DNA of 26,028 nucleotides. Origin: a virus. A program made the position numbers and the translations under genes. This document shows positions 7,400 to 24,564 of this stretch, piece after piece. The stretch's first letter is position 1. Each line of letters starts with the position of its first letter. The stretch is taken from positions 1 through 26,028 of the IMG/VR virus record IMGVR_UViG_3300017720_000058, one strand, 5' to 3'. A model generated the notes under the pieces. It saw only the letters and a program-made list of their open reading frames with translations. It did not search any database and was not told where the DNA came from.

Positions 7400-8263
7400 A
7401 TGAAAACAATAGATACATTAGTAGAAGATATATATAATTTATTTGACCCTATGGTTACAAATACTATAGACGAAAAAGAATTAGATAAACATCTAAAAGA
7501 ATTTACAAAGAATGTAACTAATAATATTAAGACTGTTTTAAATGAACAACCTAGAAAACAAAGAAGATTATCTTTATCTTCTATAGGTAAACCTACTAGA
7601 CAGTTATGGTATGATAAACATTCTAGTTCAGAAGCAAGACCTATATCTTCATCTACTAGAATTAAATTTTTGTATGGTCATATACTTGAGGACTTACTTA
7701 TACTATTGTCTAGAGCATCTGGTCATACAGTTACAGAAGAACAAAAACAAGTAGATGTAGAAGGTATTAAAGGACATCAAGATTGTAAGATAGATGGTGA
7801 GTTAGTAGATTGTAAGAGTGCTAGTGGTTACTCATTTAAAAAGTTTGCTAATAATAACTTAGTTAATGATGACCCTTTTGGATACATAGCACAAATATCT
7901 GCATACTCTGCAGGTAATAATGTTAAAGAAGCATACTTCTTAGCTATAGATAAACAGCATGGCAATCTTGCCTTAACAAGAGTACATGATTTGGAGATGA
8001 TAGATGCAAAAGAAAGAGTTAAGTATCTTAAAAATGTATTGGAAAGTAAAACAGTTCCTGATAGATGTTATAGTGATATTCCTGAAGGTAGTAGTGGGAA
8101 TAGGAAGCTTGCTATTGGGTGTGTTTTTTGTCCTCATAAAAGAGAGTGTTGGTCTGATGTTAACAATGGTAAAGGACTTCGTGCATTTAAGTATGAAAGG
8201 GGTACAACATATCTTACACAAGTTTATAAAGAACCTAGAGTTCAAGAAATAATAGATTGGTAA
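7400..8263 (+). CDS. RecB/Cas4-like PD-(D/E)XK exonuclease
   Basis: A phage recombination or DNA-degradation exonuclease of the RecB-like fold. Motifs in order: GHILE (93-97), GHQDCKIDG (125-133), LVDCKSA with catalytic D137 and K139, and AQISAY (164-169). Near the C-terminus C241-x2-C244-x5-C250 matches the iron-sulfur cysteine pattern of Cas4/AddB nucleases. The N-terminal fourth cysteine expected in those families is absent: SLSSIGKPTRQLWYDK has no Cys. Residues 1-50 form an additional charged helical segment. It sits between SSB and nucleotide genes as part of the replication/recombination module; no CRISPR genes are near, so a Cas role is not supported. The start ATG at 7400 follows the structured leader. 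Confidence 0.88.
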   Translation: MKTIDTLVEDIYNLFDPMVTNTIDEKELDKHLKEFTKNVTNNIKTVLNEQPRKQRRLSLSSIGKPTRQLWYDKHSSSEARPISSSTRIKFLYGHILEDLLILLSRASGHTVTEEQKQVDVEGIKGHQDCKIDGELVDCKSASGYSFKKFANNNLVNDDPFGYIAQISAYSAGNNVKEAYFLAIDKQHGNLALTRVHDLEMIDAKERVKYLKNVLESKTVPDRCYSDIPEGSSGNRKLAIGCVFCPHKRECWSDVNNGKGLRAFKYERGTTYLTQVYKEPRVQEIIDW

Positions 8264-8273
8264 AGGAAATAAA

Positions 8274-8495
8274 ATGGTAGCAAAAGCATATATATTAGAA
8301 GCAGTTATGTCTCACTATACAGCAGAGAGAGATAAAGCATTAGCAAATATTAAAATACATATTAACAATCCTGTGGGTGTAGGTGAACACCCTAAGATTG
8401 TAGAAGATGTTATTGAATTAGTACATAAAGCATCTGAAGCAAAAGATGCAATAGAGATGTTACATACAATAGTAAATGATGAAAAAGAAAATTGA
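8274..8495 (+). CDS. Small helical hypothetical protein (73 aa)
   Basis: A 73-residue protein beginning MVAKAYILEAVMSHYTAERDK, with AAAGGAAA (8262-8269) before the ATG. It appears to be two helices joined by a Gly/Pro turn (NNPVGVGEHP). The second helix (IVEDVIELVHKASEAKDAIEML) has coiled-coil-like spacing. Not recognised. It overlaps the next gene by about 20 bases. Confidence 0.7.
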   Translation: MVAKAYILEAVMSHYTAERDKALANIKIHINNPVGVGEHPKIVEDVIELVHKASEAKDAIEMLHTIVNDEKEN

Positions 8496-8781
8496 TATAT
8501 TTATAGATGTAGAACACAAGAAACATGAAGCACCTGAACGTGGTTTATTTTTATCTGTTATCTTACAAGCATTATTAGACGCAACTAATAGTAAAAGTAA
8601 AGTAAATAAAGATAGAGCAATAGCATGGTTCTTTTGTAGTGTTGGTGTTACGTGTGATAACTTTGAGCAGATATGTGACCATGCAGGATTAAGTCCTTCA
8701 TATACAAGAAGTTTTGCATACAAAGTTATTCATTCACCAGACTTAAAATATGTTAGACAAAGAATAAAAAAGATGTTATAA
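8476..8781 (+). CDS. Hypothetical protein with helix-turn-helix-like segment
   Basis: A 101-residue basic protein; adjacent ATGs at 8476 and 8479 are both possible starts. The segment NFEQICDHAGLSPSYTRSFA, running into YKVI, has the spacing of a helix-turn-helix DNA-binding unit (helix, Ala-Gly-Leu turn, second helix), and the C-terminus is basic (VRQRIKKML). A phage regulator or DNA-associated protein is possible. The HTH reading is by eye only, and no family name is assigned. Confidence 0.7.
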   Translation: MMKKKIDIFIDVEHKKHEAPERGLFLSVILQALLDATNSKSKVNKDRAIAWFFCSVGVTCDNFEQICDHAGLSPSYTRSFAYKVIHSPDLKYVRQRIKKML

Positions 8782-8782
8782 T
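8754..8782 (+). promoter_or_regulatory. Possible weak sigma70 promoter TAGACA-N17-TATAAT
   Basis: TAGACA (8754-8759) and TATAAT (8777-8782) with 17-base spacing, at the end of the preceding gene. The -35 deviates from the TTGAC(T/A) form seen at the other promoters. It would serve the DUF3310 and RNR genes with a leader of about 90 bases. Chance occurrence in AT-rich DNA is quite possible. Confidence 0.3.
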
Positions 8783-8872
8783 ATGGATTTTAATTTATTA
8801 ACATGTTTTATTACAGGAATATTATTGGGTATGTTTATTGTTTTAATAGCATACTTTTTAACTAAATTATAG
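8783..8872 (+). CDS. Membrane micropeptide (29 aa)
   Basis: A 29-codon frame two bases after the previous stop, starting MDFNLLTCFITGILLGMF. Almost the whole peptide is one membrane-spanning helix, ending in KL. It fills the gap between two genes with no wasted sequence, but it lacks a strong ribosome-binding site and would depend on coupling. Possibly real. Confidence 0.45.
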   Translation: MDFNLLTCFITGILLGMFIVLIAYFLTKL

Positions 8873-8881
8873 GAGAGAATT

Positions 8882-9178
8882 ATGGGATTAATGGATAAGG
8901 CTATAGCAGATACAGTAAAAGAGAAAAAAGATTTTAAGAAAATAAACTTAGAGAAAGAAGCTAAGATTGCTACAGATAGACAGGTAGGTGGTGACCATTA
9001 CAAAACATGTAAGATACAACCTGTTGACTATATTGTAGAAAATAACCTTACTTTTCTTGAGGGTAATGTAGTAAAATATATTACTAGACATAGAAGAAAA
9101 GGTGAAGGTGCAAGAGACATTGAGAAAGTAATACATTATTGTGAATTAATATTGGAGAAAGATTATGGTAGAGAATAA
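8882..9178 (+). CDS. DUF3310 protein (T7 gp1.7-like)
   Basis: A 98-residue protein. Residues 34 to about 95 match the DUF3310 signature: VGGDHYKTCKIQPVDYI, FLEGNVVKYITRHRRKG and DIEKVIHYCELIL. T7 gp1.7, which carries this domain, acts as a nucleotide kinase; in many phages the domain accompanies nucleotide metabolism, as here with the RNR nearby. The N-terminal 30 residues are lysine-rich and variable. GGAGAG (8872-8877) precedes the ATG. The family call is strong; kinase activity in this version is inferred. Confidence 0.9.
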   Translation: MGLMDKAIADTVKEKKDFKKINLEKEAKIATDRQVGGDHYKTCKIQPVDYIVENNLTFLEGNVVKYITRHRRKGEGARDIEKVIHYCELILEKDYGRE

Positions 9179-9920
9179 TTTAAACGAAAAACAAGAAACA
9201 TTTTGTCAACATTATGCAGTTAGTCATAATGCTGCACAATCTGCACGTGAAGCAGGATATTCACAAAAGTCTGCATATAATCAAGGTTATAGATTGTTAA
9301 AGGTATCAGAAGTTATGAATAGAATTAACAATATTGAAGATAAAAATAAAAATAAAAGTATTAATTTTAGTATTGTAGACGAATATATATATCAATATGA
9401 AGCATGTAAAAGAAATGGTCATTCTAATAGTGCTTTAAAAGCTTTAGAAAAAATTGAAAAATTTAAAACTACTGAATCAGAAAGAATTAAATCTTTAATA
9501 GAAAATAATAAGTTATATGAGCAACAAATTATAAATTTACAAAAAGAAAATGTAGATTTAAAAAGTACAAAAGGGTTAGATATTAAAAAAGGTTGGTTAT
9601 ATATAATAAGTAGAGAAGGTCTTATTAAGATAGGAAAAACAACTAATTTAAAAAATAGAATACAATCTCATAAATCTCAGTCTATAGGATTATTATTTAA
9701 ATTTTTAAATGCATATGTTGTAGATGATTTTCACAATATGGAACGTGAGTTAATTAAAATATTTAATAATACAGGAACATCAGTAACAAAAGAAAGTGAG
9801 TGGTATCAACTAGAAGAAACAAAAGCTTTAAATTTATTTAAAGAATCTATAAAAATAATACATACTAAAAATTTAAATAATATTTTAGGAGAATTAAAGG
9901 GGGTTATCAATGGGAAATAA
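9165..9920 (+). CDS. TerS-like DNA-binding domain fused to a GIY-YIG (T5orf172/MUG113-type) nuclease
   Basis: A 251-residue two-part protein. Residues 1-100 resemble the small terminase subunit of this same phage (17253-17741): NAAQSAREAGYSQKSAYN-type helix-turn-helix, then RNGHSNSALKALEKIEKF. A helical linker (about 101-135) follows. Residues 143-215 are a GIY-YIG domain: WLYII (145-149), IKIG (154-157), catalytic Arg165 in LKNRIQSH, a probable metal-binding Glu in NMERELIKIF, and ESEWYQLE. Freestanding GIY-YIG homing nucleases often sit beside phage RNR genes, and this one lies directly upstream of the RNR and overlaps it. The fusion suggests a homing or interference nuclease that borrowed TerS DNA recognition. 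The GIY-YIG domain and the TerS similarity are well supported; the biological role is inferred. Confidence 0.85.
   Translation: MVENNLNEKQETFCQHYAVSHNAAQSAREAGYSQKSAYNQGYRLLKVSEVMNRINNIEDKNKNKSINFSIVDEYIYQYEACKRNGHSNSALKALEKIEKFKTTESERIKSLIENNKLYEQQIINLQKENVDLKSTKGLDIKKGWLYIISREGLIKIGKTTNLKNRIQSHKSQSIGLLFKFLNAYVVDDFHNMERELIKIFNNTGTSVTKESEWYQLEETKALNLFKESIKIIHTKNLNNILGELKGVINGK
9414..9448 (+). repeat. Paralogous DNA segment shared with terS (31/35 identical)
   Basis: These 35 bases match 17493-17527 at 31 positions in the same orientation. They encode NGHSNSALKALE here and NGHTNSAIKALE in terS. The similarity remains at DNA level, implying descent of one gene segment from the other or from a common donor. 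Confidence 0.75.
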
Positions 9921-11832
9921 CTATTTACCAACAGAATATCAGACGTTTATTCATGCATCTAGATATGCACGTTGGTTACCAGATGAAATTAGAAGAGAAA
10001 CATGGATAGAAACAGTAACTAGATTTACTAATTTTTCACAAATACATTTAAAGAAAAATTTAGGTATAGAAATAGATAGTGAAATTTGGAGAAGAATAGA
10101 AGATAATATTATAGGGTTATCTGTTATGCCTTCTATGAGAGCATTAATGACAGCAGGTGCTGCATTAGAAAGAGAGAACATAGCAGGATATAATTGTTCA
10201 TATATTCCTATTGATAATCCAAAAGCTTTTGATGAAGTATTATATATTCTTATGAATGGTACAGGTGTAGGTTTTTCTGTTGAAAGACAATACATAGATA
10301 AGTTACCTACTATACCAGATAGAGAGTTTGAGAAAACAGATGATGTTGTTTCTGTTAATGATTCAAAAGAAGGTTGGGCAAGAGCATTTAAAGATTTAGT
10401 ATCTTATTTATATACTTGTAGAATACCTAAAATAAATATAAGTAAAGTTAGACTTGCAGGTGCTAGATTAAAAACATTTGGTGGTAGAGCAAGTGGTCCT
10501 CAACCTTTAGTAAATCTATTTGATTTTACTATTGATAAATTTAAAAATGCTAAAGGTAGAAAATTATCTTCTATGGAGTGTCACGATATTGTGTGTAAGA
10601 CTGGTGAGGTTGTGGTTGTAGGTGGTGTACGTAGGTCAGCTCTTATATCTCTGTCTAACTTATCAGACCAGAGATTAAGAGTTGCCAAGTCTGGTGCATG
10701 GTGGGAAACAAATCCAGAAAGAGCATTAGCTAACAACTCAGTAGCATATACAGAGAAACCTGATGCAGGTATTTTTATGAAAGAATGGTTAGCATTATAT
10801 GAAAGTAAGTCTGGAGAACGTGGTATCTTTAATAGAAAGTCTGCACAAGAAAAAGCTAGAGAGAATGGTAGACGTAATGGTGATTGGGACTTTGGCACTA
10901 ATCCTTGTAGTGAAATTATATTAAGACCTAATCAGTTTTGTAATCTTACAGAAGTAGTTGTAAGACCAGATGATACAGAAGATATGCTACATAGTAAAAT
11001 AGAAGTAGCTACTATACTAGGTACAATACAAGCAACACTAACAGACTTTGGTTATCTTAGAAAAAGATGGCAAACAAATACAGAAGAAGAAAGATTACTT
11101 GGTGTATCTCTTACAGGTATTATGGATAATGGTATACTATCTAGAATGAGAACTGCTTTACCAGATATATTAGGTAAGATGAGACATAAAGCTGTAATGG
11201 TAAATGCAGAGTGGTCAAAGAAGTTAGGTATACCACAGTCAACAGCTATCACATGTGTTAAACCTTCTGGCACAGTTAGTCAATTAGTTAACTCTGCTAG
11301 TGGTATTCATGCTAGACATAATCCTTATTATATTAGAACAGTAAGAGGAGATAAGAAAGACCCTTTAACACAGTTTATGGCAGACCAAGGCATACCTTGT
11401 GAAGATGATGTTATGCAACCTAATAACTCTGTGTTTTCTTTTCCTATGAAAGCAGACCCTGGTGCTATATATAGATATACTATGACTGCTATTGAACAGT
11501 TAGAGATATGGAAGTGTTATGCACAACATTGGTGTGAACATAAACCATCAGTAACTATATCTGTTAAGGAACATGAATGGATTAATGTAGGTAATTGGTG
11601 TTGGGATAATTTTGATACACTATCTGGTATATCATTCTTACCTTTCTCAGACCATACATATCAACAAGCACCTTATCAAGATATAGACGAGATGCAGTAT
11701 AAAGAATTAGAATCTAAGATGCCTAAAAATATTGATTGGAGTAAATTACAAAATTATGAAACAGAAGATAATACAAGAGGTTCACAGGAGTTAGCTTGTA
11801 AAGCAGGGTCTTGTGAGTTAGTAGATATATAA
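9910..11832 (+). CDS. nrdJ: Class II (adenosylcobalamin-dependent) ribonucleotide reductase, monomeric RTPR type
   Basis: Reduces ribonucleotides to deoxyribonucleotides for phage DNA synthesis, using adenosylcobalamin to form the thiyl radical. Visible: C96 in AGYNCSYIP, VVGGVRRSALISLSNLSD (about 236-253), the active-site loop NPCSEIIL with N331, C333 and E335, C344 in NQFCNLTEVV, PSGTVSQLVNSASGIHAR, and a C-terminal redox pair C630-x4-C635. All key residues are present, so it looks functional. At 640 residues it is about 100 shorter than Lactobacillus RTPR. AAAGGGGG (9896-9903) gives a strong ribosome-binding site inside the end of the nuclease gene. The glutaredoxin encoded at 873 may reduce its C-terminal cysteines. 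Confidence 0.95.
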   Translation: MGNNYLPTEYQTFIHASRYARWLPDEIRRETWIETVTRFTNFSQIHLKKNLGIEIDSEIWRRIEDNIIGLSVMPSMRALMTAGAALERENIAGYNCSYIPIDNPKAFDEVLYILMNGTGVGFSVERQYIDKLPTIPDREFEKTDDVVSVNDSKEGWARAFKDLVSYLYTCRIPKINISKVRLAGARLKTFGGRASGPQPLVNLFDFTIDKFKNAKGRKLSSMECHDIVCKTGEVVVVGGVRRSALISLSNLSDQRLRVAKSGAWWETNPERALANNSVAYTEKPDAGIFMKEWLALYESKSGERGIFNRKSAQEKARENGRRNGDWDFGTNPCSEIILRPNQFCNLTEVVVRPDDTEDMLHSKIEVATILGTIQATLTDFGYLRKRWQTNTEEERLLGVSLTGIMDNGILSRMRTALPDILGKMRHKAVMVNAEWSKKLGIPQSTAITCVKPSGTVSQLVNSASGIHARHNPYYIRTVRGDKKDPLTQFMADQGIPCEDDVMQPNNSVFSFPMKADPGAIYRYTMTAIEQLEIWKCYAQHWCEHKPSVTISVKEHEWINVGNWCWDNFDTLSGISFLPFSDHTYQQAPYQDIDEMQYKELESKMPKNIDWSKLQNYETEDNTRGSQELACKAGSCELVDI

Positions 11833-11894
11833 TGTTAGATTATATTGTTATTATAATATGTATATCATTAATATTAAATGTATTATATACATAA
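11832..11894 (+). CDS. Possible hydrophobic micropeptide (20 aa)
   Basis: A TAATG overlap with the RNR stop opens a 20-codon frame, MLDYIVIIICISLILNVLYT, which is entirely membrane-compatible. There is no separate ribosome-binding site, so it could be made only by coupling. It resembles the other hydrophobic micropeptides here, but chance is possible. Confidence 0.3.
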   Translation: MLDYIVIIICISLILNVLYT

Positions 11895-11901
11895 AAAGTT
11901 C

Positions 11902-11930
11902 TTGACTTTCATATATTTATACTGTATAAT
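11902..11930 (+). promoter_or_regulatory. Sigma70-type promoter TTGACT-N17-TATAAT upstream of hsp20
   Basis: TTGACT at 11902-11907 and TATAAT at 11925-11930, 17 bases apart, in the 97-base gap after the RNR genes. It shares CTTGACTTT with the SSB promoter. The start near 11937 leads straight into a terminator-like hairpin. It would drive hsp20 and possibly the sugar and late genes beyond the terminator at 12401. Confidence 0.7.
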
Positions 11931-11935
11931 TACAT

Positions 11936-11964
11936 AAATGAGTGCCAGAGATGGACTCTTTTTT
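11936..11964 (+). terminator. Promoter-proximal hairpin with U6 tract (attenuator or upstream terminator)
   Basis: GAGT (11940-11943) pairs with ACTC (11955-11958), and CCA (11945-11947) pairs with TGG (11952-11954), enclosing the loop GAGA with one bulged G. Six T follow (11959-11964). Flanking A and T runs could extend the stem past one mismatch. It lies within about 30 bases of the predicted hsp20 start, so it may act as an attenuator or 5' stabiliser, or end read-through from the RNR operon. Confidence 0.5.
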
Positions 11965-11991
11965 AACTTGCTTATTTAAGGAGATAAATAT

Positions 11992-12393
11992 ATGTTTGAA
12001 GTAGATACATTTTCAAGACAAGCTATTGGCTTTGATAGATTGTTTGATGTAATGAATAACATGAGAGGGAAAGATGTAAATTATCCACCTTATGATATTA
12101 TAAAAGAAGATGAAGAAACTTTTATTATAGAGTTTGCTTTATCAGGATTTAGTAAAGATGATTTAAATATTACTGTAAAAGAAAATCATCTAACAATAGA
12201 GGGTGATTATATAAAGTCAGAAGATTTAGAATACTTGCATAAAGGTATTGCTAAGAGGTCTTTCACTAGGGACTTTGTTCTAGCAGATACGTTACACGTT
12301 GAAGACGTTACATTCAATGAAGGTATATTAAGAGTTACTCTTAAACAGATTGTACCTGAAGAACAAAAGCCTAAGAAGATTAAGATTAATTAA
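11992..12393 (+). CDS. Small heat-shock protein (Hsp20/alpha-crystallin)
   Basis: A 133-residue IbpA-like holdase that would bind unfolding proteins during infection or virion assembly. The alpha-crystallin core spans about 33-120: YDIIKEDEETFIIEFALSGF, LNITVKENHLTIEG, then FNEGILRVTLKQ, which carries the GxLxxxL signature. The C-terminal KKIKIN supplies the I-x-I motif that locks oligomers. AAGGAG (11978-11983) precedes the ATG at 11992. The gene has its own promoter and a terminator after it, so it can be expressed as a single-gene unit. Hsp20 genes are known from marine cyanophages and some pelagiphages. Confidence 0.95.
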   Translation: MFEVDTFSRQAIGFDRLFDVMNNMRGKDVNYPPYDIIKEDEETFIIEFALSGFSKDDLNITVKENHLTIEGDYIKSEDLEYLHKGIAKRSFTRDFVLADTLHVEDVTFNEGILRVTLKQIVPEEQKPKKIKIN

Positions 12394-12400
12394 GTTTATA

Positions 12401-12434
12401 AATTAGGGGGTTGAAATATACCCCTATTTTTTTT
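12401..12434 (+). terminator. Rho-independent terminator after hsp20
   Basis: TAGGGG (12404-12409) pairs with CCCCTA (12421-12426), followed by eight T (12427-12434). The stem can extend past one mismatch by pairing the preceding A run with the T tract. Placed right after the hsp20 stop, it is the clearest terminator in the window. Confidence 0.8.
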
Positions 12435-12444
12435 GAGGAAATAT

Positions 12445-12690
12445 ATGAAAAAGTTATTAATATTATTATTTTTTTTTACTACTGTTAGTTATTCAGGAGA
12501 TAATATTTTGGATTCACTAGGTTATAGATACTATCATGATTTAGATAATGAACATGATGGTTCAAAGTTTAGAGCTTATGCTACAAAAAATTTTTATCAA
12601 AGTAAATTAAAGTTTGCTTATGAAAGAAAAAGAACAGGTCGTGGAGTAGAAGCAGGTACATGGTTCATTGACCATGAGTATAAATTTTAA
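12445..12690 (+). CDS. Small exported protein with beta-barrel-like C-terminus
   Basis: 81 residues from the ATG at 12445, with GAGGAAA before it; an in-frame TTG at 12433 is less likely. The N-terminus is a typical signal peptide (MKKLLILLFFFTTVSYS) with probable cleavage near residue 17 and no lipobox cysteine. The mature part has alternating strand-like segments (YRYYHDL, KFRAYATKNF, KLKFAYERK), and the last strand, GTWFIDHEYKF, ends in Phe as in outer-membrane proteins. It may sit in or near the outer membrane, but 60 residues is too short for a full barrel alone. Function unknown. Confidence 0.65.
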   Translation: MKKLLILLFFFTTVSYSGDNILDSLGYRYYHDLDNEHDGSKFRAYATKNFYQSKLKFAYERKRTGRGVEAGTWFIDHEYKF

Positions 12691-12699
12691 AGGATGCAT

Positions 12700-13488
12700 A
12701 TGCTATTAAAAAAAACAATGGTAAACACAGTTTACGTAGGGTATGACCCTAAAGAACATACTGCTTATGAGGTATTAAAATTTTCATTAGAAAGAATATC
12801 CACTAAACCTGTTAGAGTTATACCTTTGAGAAGAGATATACTTACAAAGATAGGTATATATACTAGAAAACATAATAGCATAAGTGGTCAAGACTATGAT
12901 GAGATAGATGGTAAACCTTTTTCTACACAGTTTAGTTTTAGTAGATTCTTAATACCTGCATTAAATATGTATGAAGGTCTAGCTTTATATATGGATTCTG
13001 ATATGTATGTAAGAGCAGATATAAATGAACTATTTAAAATGTGTGATAATAATTATTATCCTATACATGTAGTTAAACATAAGTATGAACCTAAAGATAA
13101 AAAGAAAATGGATGGTAAGGAACAACATGTTTACCCTAGAAAGAATTGGTCTAGTTTAATTATGTTTAATTGTGGTCATGAAGTAAATCAAAAACTGACA
13201 CCACAAGATGTTAATACTAAATCAGGTAGATGGTTACATACCTTTCAATGGTTACCAGATAAAGAAGCAGATATAGGTACAATACCTGAAGAATGGAATT
13301 GGTTAGACAATCATTCCTCTACAGATATAGATGCAAAGAATGTTCACTTTACAACAGGTGGTCCTTGGTTTAAAGACTGGGGTTCTAAAAGAGATAAAGA
13401 TGTAAAGTATGCTATTGAATGGTCTAATGATGCCCAATGGTTACAAACTCAAGGTATATTAGATGTTAATAAGGATTATATGATATGA
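12700..13488 (+). CDS. GT-A glycosyltransferase (GT8-like)
   Basis: A 262-residue sugar transferase. The DxD metal/nucleotide-sugar site is D99-S-D101 in LALYMDSDMYV, preceded by the GT8-like FSTQFSFSRFLIPAL (about 75-89). The acceptor side has PRKNWSSLIMFNC and NWLDNH. The ATG at 12700 fits the AAAGGA (12689-12694) better than the in-frame ATG at 12694. It opens a set of sugar-active genes, with the next gene overlapping by 4 bases (ATGA). Likely roles are modification of host surface glycans or decoration of virion or DNA components; substrate unknown. Confidence 0.85.
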   Translation: MLLKKTMVNTVYVGYDPKEHTAYEVLKFSLERISTKPVRVIPLRRDILTKIGIYTRKHNSISGQDYDEIDGKPFSTQFSFSRFLIPALNMYEGLALYMDSDMYVRADINELFKMCDNNYYPIHVVKHKYEPKDKKKMDGKEQHVYPRKNWSSLIMFNCGHEVNQKLTPQDVNTKSGRWLHTFQWLPDKEADIGTIPEEWNWLDNHSSTDIDAKNVHFTTGGPWFKDWGSKRDKDVKYAIEWSNDAQWLQTQGILDVNKDYMI

Positions 13489-15782
13489 AAATAAATTTTG
13501 TTACATCTTTTAATGAAGACTTATATAATAAATTTGGTACTTTATTTTTTAAATCTATCTACGAAAATTGGGAACCTAGTTTAAAAGTAAAAGCTTATCA
13601 CCATAACTTTCCTGCTGATAAATATTCATTAGAAAAACATATTGACTATACAAATCTTGAAGAACATAGAAAATATAAAAGATTTATAAAAGAAAATGCT
13701 GTTCATAATGGAACAGAAGATGGTAAGATACCTTATAATGATAAACTTGATGCTATTAAATGGTCACATAAAATGTTTGCTTTAACTGACCATGCATTTA
13801 CATTAGCAGAAAAAGATAAAGAACCAGGTTGGTTAGTGTGGGTAGATGTTGATTCTTATGCATCAAAAAGATTAACACAAAAAGATTTAGAAAAAATATT
13901 AACTGATAATGTAGACATAGTACATACAGGTAATCATTCTTTTATTGCTTTTAATTTAAATAAAAAACCACCACTAGATTTATTATGGGATTTAAGAAGA
14001 ACCTATATGAATGGTGAGGTTATACAATATAGAGAATGGACAGATAGTTTTATTCTTGAAAGACTTTTAAATATATACAAAGCTCATGGTTTAAAAATTT
14101 ATGATGCTAGAGATATTATACCTAGTTATATAATACATATGGAAGGAGTTTCTAATTCTAATATATTACCACTAAGAGATTTAAAAGGTAATCGTATATT
14201 TGAATTATCAAAAGATAATGTAACACAAGATATTAAACCTGCAAGATATGAAAGAAATGCAGAACTTATAAGACATTTTAAACCTAAAACTATATTAGAA
14301 ACTGGTACATGGAATGGTGGTCGTGCTATTGAAATGGCATTAGCTTCTTTTGAGAACACAGATACAGTAGAATATTATGGTTTTGATTTGTTTGAAGATG
14401 CTACAATAGAAACAGATAAAGAAGAGTTTAATGTTAAAGCACATAATACTATGGAAGCTGTAGAAAAAAGATTAGAAGAATTTAAAGTTAAGATGAAAGA
14501 AAAAAATAAAACATTTAATTATGTTTTAACTAAAGGTAATACAAGAGAAACATTAAAAGCTGAAAACTTATTTAAATTTTTACCTACTATAGATTATGCT
14601 TTTATAGGTGGTGGTGATAGTGTAATAACAAAACAGAGTGATTATGATTGTTTAAAACATATACCTGTTATTGTTATAGATAACTATTTTTCTAAAGATA
14701 AAGATGGTAATACAGTTAAACCAGAATATTGTGGAACTAATAAAGTAAAAGATAGTTTATCTAAAACTATTAAAAATAATATATTACCTAGTGAAGATTT
14801 AGTAAGAGGTGGTGGTAATACACATTTATTATTAATTGTAAATGATGATAAGTTACCTTCTCCACCTAGACATTTATTTAGTGTACCTATAAAAGTAAAT
14901 CCTAGAGATTGTGTACCTAAAGATTATATAAGAGATAATATTAGAACTAATTTTAAATTAATAGATAAATGGTTAGGTAAGTTTCCTATGCATGATAACA
15001 AATGTATTATAGTATCAGGTGGACCTTATACAGATTATAAAAAATTACAGGCATTAATTAAAAATAATCCTACAGCAAAGATAGTAGCTGTTAAACATTC
15101 TTATGGAAAGTTATTAGAACATAATATAAAACCTTGGGCATGTGTTGTATTAGACCCTAGACCTATCACAGGTAAAAGTACACATGGTATTATAAGAAAA
15201 GATTTATTTAAAAATATAGACCCAAGCACTAAATTTTTTGTAGCTTCTATGACAGACCCTTCTGTTACTAAATATTTAATAGAAAGAAAGGCAAACATAT
15301 GGGGATGGCACGCATTTACAGAATCATTACGTGACCCTGAAGAACAAAAGAAAGGTATACATAATAATGTAGTAACTCTTAATAAAGATTTAGGATTACC
15401 TGAAGGTACTACATTAATAACAGGTGGTACTTGTGCAGCTATGAGAGCATTAGGTATTATGCATACTATGGGATTTAGATTCTTTGAGTTATTTGGTTAT
15501 GATTCTAATATGGAAGAACCTACTAATGAACAAAAGAAAGAAACAACAGGTGCTGAAGATGAACAACCAAGACCTAAATATTTTAAAGTATCTGTTAATA
15601 AACAAGAGTTTTGGACAACAGGTGAGTTACTTGCATTAGCACAGGACTGTGAAAAATATTTTAATGAATCACCTATGGAGATGGATATTAATTTTCATGG
15701 TGAGAATACTTTAGTTTCTGCTTTATGGAAGCTATCCAATAGATATAAATTAAAACAACAATCTTTTAAAGGTGATTTATAA
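13485..15782 (+). CDS. Three-module protein: GT-A glycosyltransferase, methyltransferase fold, MptE-like/DUF115
   Basis: A 765-residue cytoplasmic enzyme. Residues 1 to about 225 are a GT-A-type glycosyltransferase domain with DVDSY near 120 (WLVWVDVDSY) and NHSFIAFN. Residues about 255-425 form a Rossmann methyltransferase-like domain: TILETGTWNGG (motif I), EYYGFDLFED, then DYAFIGG and VIVIDNYF. Residues about 500-700 match the MptE-like/Maf (DUF115) family: IIVSGGPYTDYKKL, then IKPWACVVLDPRP, LITGGTCAAMRALG and FELFGYDSN. Maf proteins attach nonulosonic acids to flagellin, so sugar transfer is the likely theme. The frame is unbroken across domain borders. It overlaps both the GT8-like gene and the following methyltransferase. 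Confidence 0.8.
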   Translation: MKINFVTSFNEDLYNKFGTLFFKSIYENWEPSLKVKAYHHNFPADKYSLEKHIDYTNLEEHRKYKRFIKENAVHNGTEDGKIPYNDKLDAIKWSHKMFALTDHAFTLAEKDKEPGWLVWVDVDSYASKRLTQKDLEKILTDNVDIVHTGNHSFIAFNLNKKPPLDLLWDLRRTYMNGEVIQYREWTDSFILERLLNIYKAHGLKIYDARDIIPSYIIHMEGVSNSNILPLRDLKGNRIFELSKDNVTQDIKPARYERNAELIRHFKPKTILETGTWNGGRAIEMALASFENTDTVEYYGFDLFEDATIETDKEEFNVKAHNTMEAVEKRLEEFKVKMKEKNKTFNYVLTKGNTRETLKAENLFKFLPTIDYAFIGGGDSVITKQSDYDCLKHIPVIVIDNYFSKDKDGNTVKPEYCGTNKVKDSLSKTIKNNILPSEDLVRGGGNTHLLLIVNDDKLPSPPRHLFSVPIKVNPRDCVPKDYIRDNIRTNFKLIDKWLGKFPMHDNKCIIVSGGPYTDYKKLQALIKNNPTAKIVAVKHSYGKLLEHNIKPWACVVLDPRPITGKSTHGIIRKDLFKNIDPSTKFFVASMTDPSVTKYLIERKANIWGWHAFTESLRDPEEQKKGIHNNVVTLNKDLGLPEGTTLITGGTCAAMRALGIMHTMGFRFFELFGYDSNMEEPTNEQKKETTGAEDEQPRPKYFKVSVNKQEFWTTGELLALAQDCEKYFNESPMEMDINFHGENTLVSALWKLSNRYKLKQQSFKGDL

Positions 15783-16387
15783 TGAAACCCTCTAAAGAAT
15801 ATTATGAATTAATTGATGCATATAAAATAATACATCAAGAAGAAGGTAAGTTTAGAGGTATTAGTTTAACACCTCTTGTTCCTACTCTTGTAAATCTTAC
15901 TAAAGAAAATAATTGTAAAACATTATTGGATTATGGTTGTGGTAAAGCCATACCTTATGATAAAGATAAATGTAATGAGATGGGATTAAAGAATACTGTT
16001 CAAGAATTGTGTAATATAAAAGAATTTTATTTATATGACCCTGCCTATGAAAAGTATTCAACACTACCTGATAAAAAATATGATATTGTAATATGCACAG
16101 ATGTATTAGAACATATAGCAGAACAAGATATAAACTATGTTTTAACTAAGATATTATCTTATAGTAATAAAATAGTATTTTTAAATATTTCTTGTCAACC
16201 TGCTTTAAAACATTTTAAACAAGGTAATCTTAAAGGTAAAAATTTACACATATCTGTGTTTGACCCTTCATGGTGGGCACATAAGATAGGAAGAGTTTGG
16301 AATAAATTTAATCATTTAAAAATATATACGTTATGTGAAACTAAAGAAGGAACACATGCTACGTGTATTAAAAAGGAGAAAAAGTAA
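15782..16387 (+). CDS. Class I SAM-dependent methyltransferase
   Basis: 201 residues. Motif I is TLLDYGCGKA (about 47-56), the acidic strand-2 end is YLYDPAYEKY, and motif IV is YDIVICTDVLEHI (about 99-111), the standard layout of small Rossmann methyltransferases. It begins in a TAATG overlap with the three-module glycosyltransferase, suggesting that it methylates the sugar product of that pathway. No target-recognition domain typical of DNA methyltransferases is present. Substrate is inferred only from context. Confidence 0.85.
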   Translation: MKPSKEYYELIDAYKIIHQEEGKFRGISLTPLVPTLVNLTKENNCKTLLDYGCGKAIPYDKDKCNEMGLKNTVQELCNIKEFYLYDPAYEKYSTLPDKKYDIVICTDVLEHIAEQDINYVLTKILSYSNKIVFLNISCQPALKHFKQGNLKGKNLHISVFDPSWWAHKIGRVWNKFNHLKIYTLCETKEGTHATCIKKEKK

Positions 16388-16794
16388 TGGCATTAACAGC
16401 ATTAATAGCACCTGCTACTAAACTAATAGGTAAGTTTATAGAAGATAAAGACCAGAAAAATAAACTTGCACATGACTTAGCAACTATGGCAGAGAAACAT
16501 GCACAAGAATTATCTAAAGGACAAATAGAAGTTAATAAAGAACAAGCTAAACATCCTAGTTTATTTGTATCAGGAGCAAGACCTGCAATAATGTGGGTAT
16601 GTTGCCTAGGATTACTATGGCAGTTCTTTGTAGGACCTGTATTAACATGGGCTACAGGTATATGGTTTCCTGATATGGTTCCACCACAGCTAGAAGTAGA
16701 AGGATTAATTACATTAGTAATGTCACTTTTAGGACTTGGAGCAATGAGGTCATTTGAAAAATCAAAGAATGTAGCAAGAGATAATTTAAAGTGA
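16387..16794 (+). CDS. Holin of the 3TM / gene-transfer-agent type
   Basis: 135 residues. A helical N-terminal part (about 1-60) ends in KHPSLFVSGARPAIMW, a segment typical of the phage holin family with three membrane segments (PF11351-like). Strong membrane helices are at about 67-92 (WVCCLGLLWQFFVGPVL) and 103-121 (VEGLITLVMSLLGLGAM). It would make membrane lesions to time lysis and release the endolysin, which here is encoded on the opposite strand. AAAAAGGAG lies before the ATG. It is followed by other small membrane-protein genes. Confidence 0.82.
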   Translation: MALTALIAPATKLIGKFIEDKDQKNKLAHDLATMAEKHAQELSKGQIEVNKEQAKHPSLFVSGARPAIMWVCCLGLLWQFFVGPVLTWATGIWFPDMVPPQLEVEGLITLVMSLLGLGAMRSFEKSKNVARDNLK

Positions 16795-16994
16795 CAACAG
16801 TATTTTTATTAGTATTATACTTAGGACAAGTACAACAGGAAAGTAATATGGTATTTGCAGATATTAATAGATGTAGATATTTTGCAAGAACATTAATGAG
16901 ACAACCTGCTGTACCTGGTGGTGCTAAATATAAAGCTATATGTAAACCTATAGAAGTAGATGCTAATAATCCAAAAGTAAGGATATACAGATGA
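16791..16994 (+). CDS. Small hypothetical protein with hydrophobic N-terminus (GTG start)
   Basis: 67 residues from a GTG at 16791 that overlaps the holin stop (GTGA). The N-terminus TTVFLLVLYLG is a short hydrophobic segment that may be a signal or anchor. A soluble part with two cysteines (NRCRYFARTLMRQ and YKAICKPIE) follows, perhaps disulfide-linked outside the cytoplasm. Its position beside the holin suggests a lysis-linked role, for example spanin-like, but there is no lipobox or coiled coil to support that. Confidence 0.6.
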   Translation: MTTVFLLVLYLGQVQQESNMVFADINRCRYFARTLMRQPAVPGGAKYKAICKPIEVDANNPKVRIYR

Positions 16995-17119
16995 ATATAT
17001 TACAATATATATGGTATAAATTAAGAGAAATAGATTCTATGTATTATGAGGTAACAGCTTACATAATAATTACTATATTAATATGTGGTGGATTTAGTTG
17101 GATTACAAGTAAGATATGA
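16991..17119 (+). CDS. Small single-pass membrane protein (42 aa)
   Basis: A frame with an ATGA overlap on both sides (start 16991, stop 17117-17119). The N-terminal half is amphipathic (MNILQYIWYKLREIDSMYYE), then comes one membrane segment (AYIIITILICGGFSW). It lies in the holin gene group and may affect lysis timing. Unnamed. Confidence 0.5.
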   Translation: MNILQYIWYKLREIDSMYYEVTAYIIITILICGGFSWITSKI

Positions 17120-17244
17120 ATTATTTAAAAACAATATATAATATTAAAACATATTTAAGAAACAATAGGAGTAGATATATGGAATTAGTTTTACATGCAG
17201 TTATTACTGGACTTATTGCAGGTTTAGTTCTTATATTAATATAG
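17116..17244 (+). CDS. Small membrane peptide (42 aa, or 21 aa from an internal start)
   Basis: Reading from the ATGA overlap at 17116 gives 42 residues: a basic N-terminal half, then a hydrophobic half (LVLHAVITGLIAGLVLILI). An internal ATG at 17179 has AGGAG (17167-17171) 7 bases upstream and would make only the 21-residue membrane helix. Both forms may be made. Such single-helix peptides near holin genes can be lysis accessory proteins. Confidence 0.5.
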   Translation: MNYLKTIYNIKTYLRNNRSRYMELVLHAVITGLIAGLVLILI

Positions 17245-17252
17245 GTATATAA

Positions 17253-17741
17253 ATGGCATTAAAAGAAAAGTATGAGAAGTTTGCACAAGGTATGGTTATT
17301 CATAACAATGCTACAGAAGCAGCTAGATATGCAGGATATACAGCAAACTCTTCTCATGCATTAGCTAATACAGGATTTAGATTAAAGAATTTACCTGAAA
17401 TAAAAGATAGAATAAAAGAATTAGAAGATAATCTTGAAACTAATGTTGATGTTATTACTGAGATAGAAAGACAATATGATTTTGCAAAGAGTAATGGGCA
17501 TACTAATAGTGCTATTAAAGCTTTAGAGTTACTATCTAAGATAAGGGGAGCAAAGAGTGATAAAGAAGTAAACACTTCTCCTGAAGGACTAGAACAAAAT
17601 ATAATTAATTCACTTAATATATTAGGTAAAAAGAAAGTAGAAAATATAATTAGTAAGTGTGATTTTAATCAACAGATAGAATCAAGTACAGAACAGCACC
17701 AACAGCACCAAGAAAAAATATCACAAGAACACCAAGAATAG
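17253..17741 (+). CDS. terS: Small terminase subunit (TerS)
   Basis: 162 residues. The N-terminal part has the TerS-type layout: FAQGMVIHNNATEAARYAGY, then FRLKNLPEIKDRIKELE, a helix-turn-helix followed by a helix. The central NGHTNSAIKALELLSKIRGA is an oligomerisation-type helical segment. The last 30 residues are Gln/His/Glu-rich (STEQHQQHQEKISQEHQE) and look disordered. It would recognise phage DNA and feed it to the large terminase, which is not in this window. It is the last plus-strand gene, and its final 77 bases overlap the 3' end of the opposing gene. A paralogous N-terminal region occurs in the GIY-YIG fusion at 9165. Confidence 0.8.
   Translation: MALKEKYEKFAQGMVIHNNATEAARYAGYTANSSHALANTGFRLKNLPEIKDRIKELEDNLETNVDVITEIERQYDFAKSNGHTNSAIKALELLSKIRGAKSDKEVNTSPEGLEQNIINSLNILGKKKVENIISKCDFNQQIESSTEQHQQHQEKISQEHQE
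17493..17527 (+). repeat. terS copy of the paralogous 35-bp segment
   Basis: This segment matches 9414-9448 at 31 of 35 bases in the same orientation, within the region encoding the shared NGH(S/T)NSA(L/I)KALE motif. Confidence 0.75.
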
Positions 17742-18114
17742 TATTCTCTATCATCTGTGCTTGTTTTCTTTTAGCTTCTGCTATTGCTTCTTTCTTTTTC
17801 TTTCTTATGTTTACTTGTATTCTAATTACTTCATTCCAAGCATTAGGACCATAATGCATATTAACAAAGTTACGAAGTTCATTCTCCATCTGCTGTGCTT
17901 TTTTAAGAGCAGCAAAAGATTCTAAAGCTTCCTCTTCAACAGAACCAAAAGACCTACCTTTTGCTTTATTATGACCTTCTTTAACCTCTTGAATAGCACC
18001 CATCCATCTGCCAAGGTCTTTGGACATACCTTCAATTTCTTTCCCAACTTGAAATCCTCTTTTAATTGCATTATATGCAGTTGTAGCAATACCAATAGCT
18101 GATATAGGGTCCAC
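17665..18114 (-). CDS. Hypothetical protein with C-terminal membrane anchor
   Basis: 149 residues from a GTG at 18114, chosen because AAGGAG is 5 bases upstream; an ATG 5 bases further upstream is out of frame. The protein begins MDPISAIGIATTAYNAIKRG. It has a long charged helical middle (about 60-118, rich in Lys/Glu/Ala, e.g. IRKKKKEAIAEAKRKQAQM) and ends with one membrane helix (NTILGVLVIFFLGAVGAVLY). It follows the endolysin gene on the same strand, so a lysis or inner-membrane role is possible. It overlaps terS tail to tail by 77 bp. Confidence 0.75.
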   Translation of the reverse strand: MDPISAIGIATTAYNAIKRGFQVGKEIEGMSKDLGRWMGAIQEVKEGHNKAKGRSFGSVEEEALESFAALKKAQQMENELRNFVNMHYGPNAWNEVIRIQVNIRKKKKEAIAEAKRKQAQMIENTILGVLVIFFLGAVGAVLYLILSVD

Positions 18115-18123
18115 ATCATCTCC

Positions 18124-18513
18124 TTATTTATAAGACCATATCCAAGGTCTTGGACTCGTTATTGATTTTCTAGGCATAGTATCTAAATGTATAAATCTTT
18201 TAGCATGTATTCCATTTTGTTTAACACCTATACCTGTAAAACCTAACTCCATAGCTAGTTTAACTATCTCAAAAGCTTTATGTCCAGAGCATACAACATC
18301 AACAGCACAACCTTTTAAATGTGCAGATTGTTTGCTACCACCTATAGCTATATTATGTGATTCACTTCTATAACCAGAACTAATAGTCATAGGTTGTTTT
18401 AATTTATCTCTTAGCTCATCAAGCTTACTCATAAACTTTTCATCCATATGTACCTCACCTGTACCTTTACATCTTAATTCTTCTTCAGAAAAGTATTTCC
18501 ATCTAGTTACCAT
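18124..18513 (-). CDS. M15-family peptidase, endolysin-like
   Basis: 129 residues with the zinc D-Ala-D-Ala carboxypeptidase / L-Ala-D-Glu endopeptidase layout (peptidase M15 family). SSGYRSESHN is at 45-54. SAHLKGCAVDV has zinc ligands H65 and D72, and RFIHLD gives the third ligand H109 with D111. It would cut peptidoglycan cross-links or stem peptides at lysis. There is no signal peptide, so it needs a holin, a candidate for which is on the other strand at 16387. AAGGAG precedes the ATG. The gene overlaps the upstream membrane/coiled-coil gene by 11 bases. Confidence 0.9.
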   Translation of the reverse strand: MVTRWKYFSEEELRCKGTGEVHMDEKFMSKLDELRDKLKQPMTISSGYRSESHNIAIGGSKQSAHLKGCAVDVVCSGHKAFEIVKLAMELGFTGIGVKQNGIHAKRFIHLDTMPRKSITSPRPWIWSYK

Positions 18514-18754
18514 TAGCTTGTCTCCTTATCATATCATCTATCTTACTTTCTAGTCTATCAAATCGTTGCATAAGTTGTGTCATATCATCTTTAACATCTT
18601 CTTTAGTGGCATACATAAGTGCCATGTTTTCTTTAGACTTAGATAGCTCATCTTTTACTTTACTAATAGCACCAGATGTAGAACGTATCCACCATAGAAA
18701 TCCACCTATTGCCATAGTTAATATTGCATTCCATATCATTGTCATATCTGCCAT
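18503..18754 (-). CDS. Membrane-anchored coiled-coil protein (83 aa)
   Basis: Residues 6-24 (MIWNAILTMAIGGFLWWIR) form a membrane helix. Residues 30-78 form a long charged helix with heptad-like spacing (KVKDELSKSKENMAL, DDMTQLMQRFDRLESKIDDM). AGGAG is 6 bases before the ATG. This arrangement resembles small phage proteins encoded beside endolysins, such as XhlA-like or inner-membrane spanin-like proteins. The position directly before the M15 peptidase supports a lysis role, but assignment to a specific class is not secure. Confidence 0.75.
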   Translation of the reverse strand: MADMTMIWNAILTMAIGGFLWWIRSTSGAISKVKDELSKSKENMALMYATKEDVKDDMTQLMQRFDRLESKIDDMIRRQANGN

Positions 18755-18757
18755 TGT

Positions 18758-21700
18758 TTACTCCTGTTCTGTTTCTTGTATTTCTAGTAAAGGTAAATTA
18801 TCATATCTTGCTATAATAGTTTGTATTTCTTTTAAATTATTTACTGGTATACGTTGTTCGTTATTTAATCTAAGTAGAAGATTATTAATTTTTGGTGATG
18901 TTGATACTCCTTTTATGTTATTACCTGCATTTGCAATCATAGTGTTCATAGCTTTTTTAGGAAATTGTTTTGTTCCTTGAATAGTTAGTATATTGTATAT
19001 ATCTTTTGCTAGTTTTTTTCTAACTACATCACCACCTACTTTTTCATAAAATTCTAACTTTTGAACTTCATGTAAAAACTCTGCTAGTTCTTGTTGTCTT
19101 TTATAAGATGTTGCTAAAGCATTATTTAATTCTTTATAAAAATTTAATGTACTATCTTTATCAGTCCAATCAACATTAAAAGATTTATTTAAAGAGGAAA
19201 ATAATTCTGAATCAGCACTTGATATTTTTTTTGTTAACCCACCTACTTTTATATTTATACTTCTATCTATGTCATCTGTTTGATGTTTAAAACCACTTAA
19301 TGAAGCTATTTGGTCTTCATATCTTTTAGGGAAACCTGCATCTGTTGTTCCTAAACCTTTTTTTATTTCATTATTTACTGTTTCTGAATTAAGTGATTTC
19401 CATATATTTTCACCTGTAGTATAGGTTCCAGGTACAAATGCTTTACCAATATTTAAACCATCTGCAAATCTTCTTTTTATATAATCATCAGACTCTTTAT
19501 ATAAAGATTTACCTTCTTTAGTTGTTCCTCCTCTAACAAAAGAATCTAATAATGGTTCTACTAATAAACTTTCATTAATAAAAGGAGCAAAAGCACTTTC
19601 ACTTGCTGATAAAAGGTCATTTAATTTTTTTTGTATTTCATCTACATTACCACTTTGTAAAGAAAACATAAATGGAAAAAACTTTTCACCTAATTGAATT
19701 ATAGGAGCATGAGGTAAAGTATATGTTAAATTTCTAGAACGAACTTCTCGTTTACCTGTTTTAGGATTTTTAAATATAGGACTTATATATTCTCTTATCT
19801 CATCTTTTTGCCAATCAGCTCCTAATAATCTTAATATCTTATCATCTTCTAATCTAATACCAAACTGTTTACGTTGATGTTGTAAATATTGTTGACCTGC
19901 AATAAATGCAGTTGTTAAACCTGCAAGTCTAGATGCACCTGCTCTTACTAATTGTGGATTACCTGCTTCTAATGAGCCAACTTTAGGTAAACCTTTTAAT
20001 ATATCACTTGAACCAATCTTAATTATTTCTTTTGTATTTCTAAACATCTCTGCAGTAAATGCAGGAAAAGCACCTATTGGCATCCTTCTTAATTGTTTAA
20101 TACCTCTAGGTATCATATTATATGTTGGCATGGTATTTTTAACAACCTCTGCTGCTAAATTTCTTAACTGTTCTTCTGTAGCTTTAGGATATGCTCTTGA
20201 ATATCTTTGCATTTCTCTATAAAAAGCAACAGCTTTCATAACATCATCTTCTGCAGAATATACATCACCTGCTACTTTCATAGTTTTATCATAAAACTTT
20301 TTTACAAAGTTATCTGTATTTTTAAAAGCATCATCCATACTTTGTATAATAAACTGTGCTCTTACTCCACTACTTAATACACCTCTTTCTGTTAAATCTC
20401 TTACTTCTTTTAATGCTTGAGGAGTTCTTTTAGTTAATACCATTGCTGCTTGTGGAAGTTCTTTTGCTACCCCTACTCCTAAATTACCATTTGCTCCTAA
20501 TAATATAAAGTTACCCTCAAGGTTTTTAATATGTGTTACACCTGATAAAGATGTTTTTGCTCCACTAACATAACCACTCAACCCATAATATCCTCTTAAG
20601 AAAGGATTAACATCATCACCTATAGGTTTTAGTTCTGTTCCTGTTTGTAATATTTTTTTAAATTCAGGAGTTGTAAAAACTCTAGCCAAAGGATTAGCAT
20701 TATCTCCAAAAGCTCTAAGATAATTATTAGCTAAATCTGATAACTCTGATGAAAATTTACCTGATGGTGCAAAACCCATTTGCATTTCTTTTTTTGGTAA
20801 TATTTTATATAAATCTACACCATAGTCTGATTTAGCTATCTTTTCTATATTTTTTAAAAAGTTATGTTCTACTACTAATGAACCTAGTTTCTTTGTTGTT
20901 TCATTAAATTTAACTAAGGGGTCATCTATAGGTCCTAATATAGCTCTAAATGCAGGGTCTATATTTTTTCTTGCAGTTAATACTTTACCAAAAGCATGGT
21001 CTTTTACAGCTTTAGAACTTCCTAAATTTAATATATCTAAATTATCTACATCTTTAATTCCTTTTTTATTGATGTAGTTCATTAACATACCATCTATATT
21101 ATCTCTAGTAGCATTAGGATAAGATTGTTTAATTACTCTTCTTGCTAATTGAACAGCTTCAAATGCTTCTCCCTCTGTGGCTTTACCATCTTTTAATATC
21201 TTTGTAACCTCTTTAATATATTTAGGGTCTGTAAAAGCTTTAAAATCTTGAGTTAAATACAAACCTAAATTTTTATCTATAGTAGTGTTTAAACCTTTTG
21301 ATATACCTAAATTTTTAGTTTCTTCTGATAAAGAATCAATAATACCTCTAAGTCTTCTAACACCTAATTGCATCTCAGGTTTTAATTCTTTATAAGCAGC
21401 ACCACTAATACTTTTTTCTTTTTTTAATAAATTATCATAATGTTGTTCTATAATAGATTGCTCTGCTTTTGTTCTTTTCTTAAAAGGTTTATCTAATATT
21501 TTTAATATTTCTGGTGTTGCATCATCTTGTAAATTAGGAGTTTTACCTAAAGCATTTTTTATTACTAATAGTTCATCATCACCTAATTCATTATAACTTT
21601 TACCATAAACTTTTTTAATTAATTTTTCAAATCTTTTTGTTTCACCTTTTGCAGCTATTGCTAAACTTTTTAATGCACCTTCTTTTTGTGTAAAAGCTCT

Positions 21701-22777: not shown

Positions 22778-22778
22778 A

Positions 22779-24563: not shown

Positions 24564-24564
24564 T

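Follow-up and report, generated by a model that had tools for sequence, protein, structure and literature searches.

A two-hairpin leader preceding a viral hsp20 gene resembles ROSE-type RNA thermometers

The stretch of DNA analysed here, referred to throughout as the window, is the complete 26,028-nucleotide IMG/VR virus record IMGVR_UViG_3300017720_000058, for which no close DNA relatives were found among the named phages. It carries a gene for a small heat-shock protein, hsp20, downstream of a ribonucleotide reductase (RNR) gene, and the features of the intervening leader are collected in Table 1. A 20-codon open reading frame (ORF) (MLDYIVIIICISLILNVLYT) at 11832-11894 overlaps the stop codon of RNR and extends almost to the hsp20 promoter; taking the longest ATG ORF per relative, small hydrophobic ORFs occupy about the same place in many of the 46 clade relatives introduced below. 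Elsewhere in the window, the ORF at 9165-9920 joins a small-terminase-like N-terminus to a C-terminus of the GIY-YIG/T5orf172/MUG113 type. Strand and GC skew switch near 18 kb (18124-26019), the left part being on the plus strand and the right part, with ORFs of 1339, 594 and 484 amino acids, on the minus strand.

Table 1. Features of the hsp20 locus (positions in the window)
Feature	Position	Strand	Remarks
RNR gene	9910-11832		upstream of hsp20
Sigma70-type promoter, TTGACT-17-TATAAT	11902-11930	+	-35 box 11902-11907, -10 box 11925-11930; 11/12 consensus
Hairpin I	11940-11958	+	outer stem GAGU/ACUC, bulged G11944, inner stem CCA/UGG, loop GAGA; 7 bp
U6 tract	11959-11964	+	taken to belong to an A/U-rich linker; frequent chiefly in the window clade
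ROSE-type anti-Shine-Dalgarno, CUU-G-CUU (U(U/C)GCU motif)	11967-11973	+	G11970 bulged; core of the search pattern; within covariance model match 11957-11983
Shine-Dalgarno sequence, AAGGAG	11978-11983	+	3' arm of the SD hairpin; loop 11974-11977
hsp20, small heat-shock protein, 133 aa	11992-12393	+	Pfam PF00011, 1.4e-18; phrog_432, 7.8e-42
Terminator-like site after hsp20	12406-12434	+	6-bp stem (4 G-C pairs), T-rich tail; scan: 12406-12425 plus T run

The hsp20 protein was used to search viral contigs, and the best 80 of 199 relatives were kept. The leader type of the window is shared by 46 of these, and the window and these 46 loci are hereafter called the clade. A preliminary description of this DNA had reported a strong promoter followed at once by a hairpin, and both elements hold up well. 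At 11/12, the promoter ranks among the top two promoter-like sites within 8000-26028. Since such sites are overall no commoner there than in shuffled sequence (87 versus a mean of 103.6), the site alone would be weak proof. It is, however, kept in all 47 clade leaders, and in every one of them hairpin I starts 8 or 9 nt past the -10 box. Judging from the position of the -10 box, transcription would start near 11937, giving a predicted leader of 55 nt (11937-11991) with the hsp20 start codon placed 8 nt past the Shine-Dalgarno (SD) sequence. As a terminator-like site lies 3' of the gene, hsp20 would form its own transcription unit.

Hairpin I has the sequence GAGU-G-CCA-GAGA-UGG-ACUC. The hairpin and its U6 tract, which together had been placed at 11940-11964, are confirmed, with a minimum free energy of -7.5 kcal/mol (z -2.42), a stability equalled or exceeded by 6 of 200 shuffles. 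In six of the 47 clade leaders the CCA/UGG stem has become CUA/UAG by a change on both sides. A consensus terminator scan did not return hairpin I, probably because of its bulged G, and did report the classical terminator after hsp20.

The second element of the leader is a short hairpin on the SD sequence itself (11967-11983), which was missing from the preliminary description. Its pairs are C11967-G11983, U11968-A11982, U11969-G11981, C11971-G11980, U11972-A11979 and U11973-A11978. The pairing of U(U/C)GCU with the SD sequence has been described as typical of ROSE-like RNA thermometers (PMC3669281, PMC11182007, in the text available), and here UUGCU at 11968-11972 faces AGGA. The further traits expected of such elements are likewise present: by sequence, G11970 is bulged within the SD hairpin; the leader comprises hairpin I and the SD hairpin, where two to four hairpins with the SD sequence in the last are the rule; and the leader is the 5' UTR of a heat-shock gene, with hsp20 directly downstream.

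Most of the other relatives, whose Hsp20 proteins are 45-60% identical, follow the same plan in other letters, as seen in the 16 leaders displayed. In this plan a hairpin carrying a bulged G is separated by a linker from a CUUGCUUA-like stretch, which the SD sequence follows; the U tract does not belong to it. A core pattern, T[TC]GCT-N2-14-AGGA/GGAG, was found within the 140 nt upstream of hsp20 in all 78 testable loci among the best 80 of 199 relatives (L057 and L067 were left out as their upstream sequence is too short), and these represent 50 distinct upstream sequences. When hsp20 and all other ORFs of at least 100 amino acids in the same loci were treated on equal terms, using the first in-frame ATG and 45 nt of upstream sequence, the core preceded 63 of 78 hsp20 genes and 4 of 331 other ORFs. 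The 15 misses stem from mechanically chosen starts and vanish when a nearby in-frame start is taken, which restores the core in 78/78. A strict form, CTTGCTTA..AGGAG, gave 56/78 against 3/331 on the same terms, and all three of the exceptions are dnaK genes. The fourth ORF with the looser core, in L076, has no evident element and looks like a chance match.

The association extends to a second chaperone gene. A dnaK gene with its own ROSE-type leader occurs on the virus contigs L049 (3012-4895), L053 (3014-4900), L062 (2870-4753), L195 and L166, and in the first three it adjoins hsp20 on the upstream side of the latter. In L168 (5074-7748), groES-groEL and hsp20 adjoin, with a ROSE-like element before hsp20 and another upstream of groES. 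This first element stands directly 5' of a 14-codon ORF, and groES follows about 130 nt further on with a promoter-like sequence of its own, so control of groES/EL by the element is uncertain. ROSE-like leaders also precede ORFs of 85-90 amino acids of no known family in L089 and L173; an initial identification of these as phasins was dropped for lack of Pfam or PHROGs support.

A scan of viral contigs by the motif alone returned at least 119 matches in the fetched stretches. Among the 119 matches listed, a short protein motif identifies an hsp20-like ORF behind 86; dnaK follows 2, other ORFs follow 19, and 12 have no start codon in reach. Of the 31 in these last two groups, 23 were judged to be chance and excluded before the leaders were folded, and the remaining 8 are either truncated hsp20 ORFs or other ORFs that follow an evident hairpin I. 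For the named phages, 20 of the 507 records with hsp20 matches were fetched, and the core precedes hsp20 in 15 of these. In a further one, P-HM1 (L210, 129918-130774), the core lies just downstream of the annotated hsp20 start, which is itself upstream of the ROSE-type leader and SD sequence. The true start there is probably the ATG after CAGGAG, in which case the annotated Hsp20 may be too long. The remaining four (S-TIM5, S-B68, PA5oct and SCTP-2) have altered SD stems that by eye still pair around one bulged G. A search of the genome_contigs collection for hsp20 relatives found none, and neither did a search of viral_contigs for a PA5oct-like hsp20.

For wider comparison, a set of 71 non-redundant leaders was prepared by removing those shorter than 60 nt or at least 80% alike. 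About 67 of these precede hsp20 and the others dnaK (2) or unidentified ORFs, including those of L089 and L173; the set derives in part from the matches listed in scans, and the counts given for it are therefore counts in a sample. A finder that requires the outer stem, the bulged G and the inner stem located hairpin I in 70 of the 71 leaders, the sole exception being a dnaK leader. The median score was 20.5, as opposed to 6.3 in dinucleotide-preserving shuffles, of which 2 of 213 reached 20.5. Of 70 leaders, 45 have a TAAATA or TATAAT box in the 28 nt that run up to the start of the hairpin, compared with 55 of 1,400 random 28-mers. On account of this enrichment, such leaders seem as a rule to have a promoter directly 5' of the hairpin; this promoter would appear to be sigma70-like in the window and late-promoter-like in T4 relatives, for which the available text of PMC3037559 names the late promoter motif TATAAAT.

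The pairing of hairpin I is also supported by covariation. As a plain MAFFT alignment of the diverse leaders (A2) misplaced the SD sequence, the variable loops were padded with N in a structural alignment (A3) of 45 leaders. The window clade was left out of A3, as were leaders whose linker or loops were long, whose bulges differed, or whose stems had fewer than five pairs. In A3, 98.8% of cells pair, against 78.9% after shuffling, although helix 1 is perfect by selection, the rows having been preselected for pairing; the covariation score is 0.569 against 0.148. Nine of the 13 pairs change on both sides, with helix 2 supplying few of these changes.

These comparisons bear directly on the proposal, made in the preliminary description, that hairpin I and its U6 tract act in attenuation or antitermination. 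A promoter-proximal intrinsic terminator would end most transcripts at about 28 nt, with some allowed through to hsp20 by a further signal. The hairpin and U6 tract are present as such a model demands, and at least five T occur in the eight bases after hairpin I in 43 of the 47 clade leaders. Only 8 of the 70 non-redundant leaders have such a tract, yet hairpin I and the ROSE motif persist in them. Furthermore, the stem is short and bulged, and the terminator-like site after hsp20 looks quite different. Comparison with related hsp20 leaders, which had been suggested as a check, thus gave a divided answer in which the hairpin is kept and the U tract outside the clade is not. Since leaders outside the clade mostly lack the U tract, termination was set aside as the main reading; as the conserved function it is improbable, hairpin I is probably not mainly a terminator, and within the clade some transcripts may end at about 28 nt.

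A second suggestion was that the hairpin might end read-through from RNR. It does lie between RNR, which ends at 11832, and hsp20. Its fixed spacing behind the hsp20 promoter throughout the clade, and its recurrence before hsp20 where other genes (regA, purL, hypothetical genes) lie upstream, make this a most unlikely main role.

It could also be imagined that the leader is itself translated. An AUG at 11938-11940, which the preliminary description does not mention and where the transcript is predicted to start, opens a 13-codon ORF (MSARDGLFFNLLI) that runs through hairpin I, with a stop codon (11977-11979) overlapping the SD sequence, and a leaderless message might be translated from this AUG through both hairpins with coupling to hsp20. 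An ATG 6 or 7 nt past the -10 box is found in 47/47 clade leaders (among the best 80 of 199 relatives), and in 10 of them it is in frame with hsp20 with no intervening stop. In the other 37, however, variation in the T run upsets the frame, and the spacing from the stop to the hsp20 start takes nine different values. Among wider leaders an ATG marks the hairpin start in 13 of 69, and the invariant letters are also letters of hairpin I. Such an arrangement is very unlikely to be the function of the leader. The unkept frame argues against a conserved peptide, and less so against effects of ribosomes starting there.

Evidence for the SD pairing comes from a small number of compensated changes, several of them read by eye, because the helix is almost invariant in an aligned set that was gathered by its motif. 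The SD stem of S-TIM5 reads CCAC-G-CUU/AAG-GUGG by eye, as in L221-L223. Also by eye, the stems UUAC-G-CU/AG-GUAA of S-B68, AUCUU-G-C/G-GAGAU of PA5oct and CU-G-CCU/AGG-AG of SCTP-2 each pair with one G bulged. Compensation is seen in S-H9-1 (GUC-G-CUU/AAG-GAC) and in L226, where AUC-G-CUU/AAG-GAU corresponds to CUC/GAG in its relative L224. The invariance of the bulged G in A3 is due to selection, so that independent examples of it come, by eye, from L226 and the four phages with altered stems. A candidate lower stem beyond the SD sequence (e.g., UUUA/UAAA or GUCAU/AUGAC) was rejected: in a swap test the bases beyond the SD stem gave no covariation, the native stems having -7.24 kcal/mol and the swapped ones -7.35, with 138 of 200 swaps at least as stable.

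A covariance model, R1, was built from the 45 A3 leaders, the window clade being left out. Its best match falls at the hsp20 leader in all 47 clade sources (best 80 of 199 relatives) at E-values of 0.0003-0.03, with two further matches, in L011 and L012, at 0.18. Searched on its own, the window gives the leader as best match (11957-11983, E 0.0013; next 0.58), covering the SD half only, perhaps owing to the four-pair outer stem of hairpin I in the clade. Among 15 phage loci outside the model, eight match at the leader with E-values from 2e-9 to 0.4, and the model did not find L203, L211, L213, L214 and L221-L223. When 20 whole phage genomes were searched at E <=0.5, R1 returned 10 matches in nine records, eight of them directly before hsp20: L201, L202, L208 and L219, which are in the model, and L205, L207, L216 and L217, which are outside it. 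The two matches in PA5oct lie on the strand opposite the annotated genes, one intergenic and one intragenic, and were taken as chance. With stricter filters, no match was obtained in 11 of the 20 genomes, four of the 11 being in the model.

The same model reaches into bacteria. Loci of Pseudomonas, Azotobacter and Stutzerimonas (at least 120) were fetched by a pattern consisting of the exact apex of hairpin I, GATGCCGAAGTCGGGTC, and a subsequent YTYGCT, and 115 of the 120 matches listed have an ibpA-type ORF behind this pattern. R1 recognizes 27 of 80 such loci tested at the expected leader: 9 of 20 at E <=1 (one by its SD half only) and 18 of 62 at E <=0.1, two loci being in both lists. One off-target match occurred, in L279.

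The nearest Rfam family is RF02523 (ROSE_3). It gives no match in the window at E up to 10. With E-values allowed up to 1, it matches the hsp20 leader in three of the 20 phage records that were fetched, with 34.1 bits (Melnitz, L202, the best relative), 26.8 and 24.6 bits, all under the 43-bit cut-off. ROSE_3 matches L069 at 20.3 bits, but a search at E up to 10 gave no match to the leader of L068, which is nearly identical. At gathering thresholds, no Rfam family was found in the window or in ten related loci, and weak matches to freshwater-2 and others were judged to be chance. Because of the lack of a window match and the scores below the cut-off, the leader is not filed as a member of RF02523; it is classed as ROSE-like by its motif, register and layout.

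Calculations of folding present a less uniform picture. By nearest-neighbour rules, the isolated SD stem of the window would melt at 26.8 C, close to the phage median of 27.4 C (71 stems), and the Pseudomonas median is 66.0 C (38 stems). The low value may reflect a switching temperature that fits marine conditions, or it may mean that the stem by itself is too weak for regulation. Results for whole leaders depend on the stretch folded: with ViennaRNA, which does not include the non-canonical pairs reported for ROSE hairpins, the probability that the SD sequence is unpaired goes from 0.17 to 0.44 between 5 and 42 C for 11937-11994, and from 0.86 to 0.57 for 11937-12000. One truncated context of the window gave an ideal-looking curve, with an SD-stem probability of 0.98 at 5 C that has dropped to 0.11 by 45 C; it was set aside because other contexts disagree. 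Over the 71 leaders, the exact SD stem has a mean probability that hardly varies between 5 and 45 C (0.30-0.35). The SD sequence is predicted to be more occluded than in 160 control SD sequences at 20 C (median unpaired 0.41 versus 0.51, p 1e-7), and shuffling the upstream 30 nt raises this median to 0.44 (p 0.005). Its opening between 10 and 40 C is no larger than in the 160 controls (0.036 versus 0.059).

The weak SD stem of the window would also suit a constitutive leader, in which a 5' hairpin stabilizes the mRNA ahead of a strong ribosome site, and the flank is conserved for reasons other than regulation. Stabilization by a 5' hairpin is feasible, and has been raised for hairpin I of Pseudomonas (PMC3669281, in the part available). 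Such a leader leaves unexplained the U(U/C)GCU opposite the SD sequence, the compensated SD changes, the bias towards chaperone genes and the architecture in common with tested thermometers, and it is considered unlikely.

Somewhat less unlikely, by analogy with E. coli, is autogenous feedback, besides or instead of a response to temperature, whereby the phage Hsp20 would bind and repress its own leader until titrated away by aggregating proteins. The weak temperature dependence of whole-leader melting is in keeping with this. The equivalent of Arg93 of E. coli IbpA is present in 61 of the 62 complete phage Hsp20 proteins of the non-redundant set (9 of the 71 being left out) and corresponds to R89 in the window, the alignment column having been placed from what we take to be the E. 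coli IbpA sequence. In E. coli, IbpA represses itself via the ibpA 5' UTR and needs this residue of its alpha-crystallin domain, according to the available text of PMC10474464. The arginine may, however, be kept for other reasons, and the ROSE motif also precedes dnaK.

Taken together, the hsp20 leader is best read as a short two-hairpin ROSE-like RNA thermometer, to which a probability of roughly 0.7 is assigned. The promoter would start the RNA a few bases 5' of hairpin I, which would form a stable 5'-terminal hairpin with a bulged G, probably protecting the transcript end and helping hairpin II to fold. The weak second hairpin would pair the SD sequence with CUUGCUU, one G being bulged. At low temperature this hairpin would hinder ribosome binding, and upon warming or other destabilization it would open, allowing Hsp20 to be made. 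Temperature-sensitive folding of the leader had been one of the suggestions of the preliminary description. The comparisons favour it, but the sensor would be the stretch 11967-11983 and not the hairpin then described.

A broader and decidedly tentative proposal is that unrelated tailed phages keep a chaperone riboregulon, with ROSE-type SD stems tuned to seawater and possibly bound by Hsp20, that senses both warmth and aggregation load. It would cover hsp20, in some phages dnaK and perhaps groES/EL, and the aggregating protein could be, for example, the capsid protein. If so, the leader would release chaperone on demand during infection.

Thermometer-type leaders were seen in cyanophages, pelagiphages, a Methylophilales phage, the phage of the window and, by eye, a Pseudomonas phage. 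These occurrences suggest translational control of Hsp20 production, the probable trigger being warmth or protein-folding stress. The hsp20 gene is reported in all 16 marine T4-like cyanophages compared in PMC3037559, where, in the text available, its role is guessed to be capsid scaffolding. Leaders of one design before the chaperone gene of many unrelated marine phages could help to reveal why hsp20 is carried; the reason for its carriage becomes testable and, if the reading is correct, marine phage production would be tied to water temperature. No report of a ROSE element in a phage was recognized in the literature searched, outside of which lay subscription papers and preprints, and the terms "thermometer" and "UTR" are absent from two papers on cyanophage small heat-shock proteins. 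The range of ROSE elements, which have been described for proteobacteria, would come to include viruses and hsp70.

Among known systems, the closest is the ibpA leader of Pseudomonas, which, in the available text of PMC3669281, has two hairpins in 61-62 nt, of which hairpin II melts and hairpin I does not; the P. putida thermometer was tested there by reporter assay. Like it, the phage leader spans about 60 nt of 5' UTR ahead of a gene for a small heat-shock protein, with a predicted stable hairpin I and the SD sequence in hairpin II. The SD stem of the window lies in the same register as that of P. putida, with a lower C-G pair, a U-G wobble, the bulged G and a C-G pair, and the hairpin I apex GAUGCCGAAGUCGGGUC is identical in the phage contig L165 and in Pseudomonas ibpA leaders. 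The phage leader differs in being phage-borne, in its A/U-rich linker, in having no ROSE_3 match in the window, and in an SD stem that lacks the upper G-C clamp and has a predicted melting near 27 C, against 66 C. A search of E. coli genomes for the Pseudomonas ibpA found none.

Classical ROSE elements of rhizobia, Caulobacter, Salmonella and E. coli ibpA also place a U(U/C)GCU/SD hairpin before small heat-shock genes (PMC3669281, PMC11182007), and have three to four hairpins in the descriptions available, unlike the two of the phage leader. E. coli IbpA resembles the phage protein in being a small heat-shock protein with the conserved arginine behind a thermometer-type leader; its repression through its own 5' UTR is described in PMC10474464, and binding of RNA by the phage Hsp20 is putative. 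Thermometers already described in phages are those of lambda cIII, SPbeta blyA and a Caudoviricetes sigma70 leader, which are likewise temperature-linked leaders acting on translation. In the available text of PMC11182007, the blyA and sigma70 leaders are given as the fourU type, unlike the phage hsp20 leader, and none of the three is termed ROSE or placed before a chaperone gene. The cyanobacterial hsp17 thermometer, as presented in the available part of PMC4477652, likewise stands before a small heat-shock gene.
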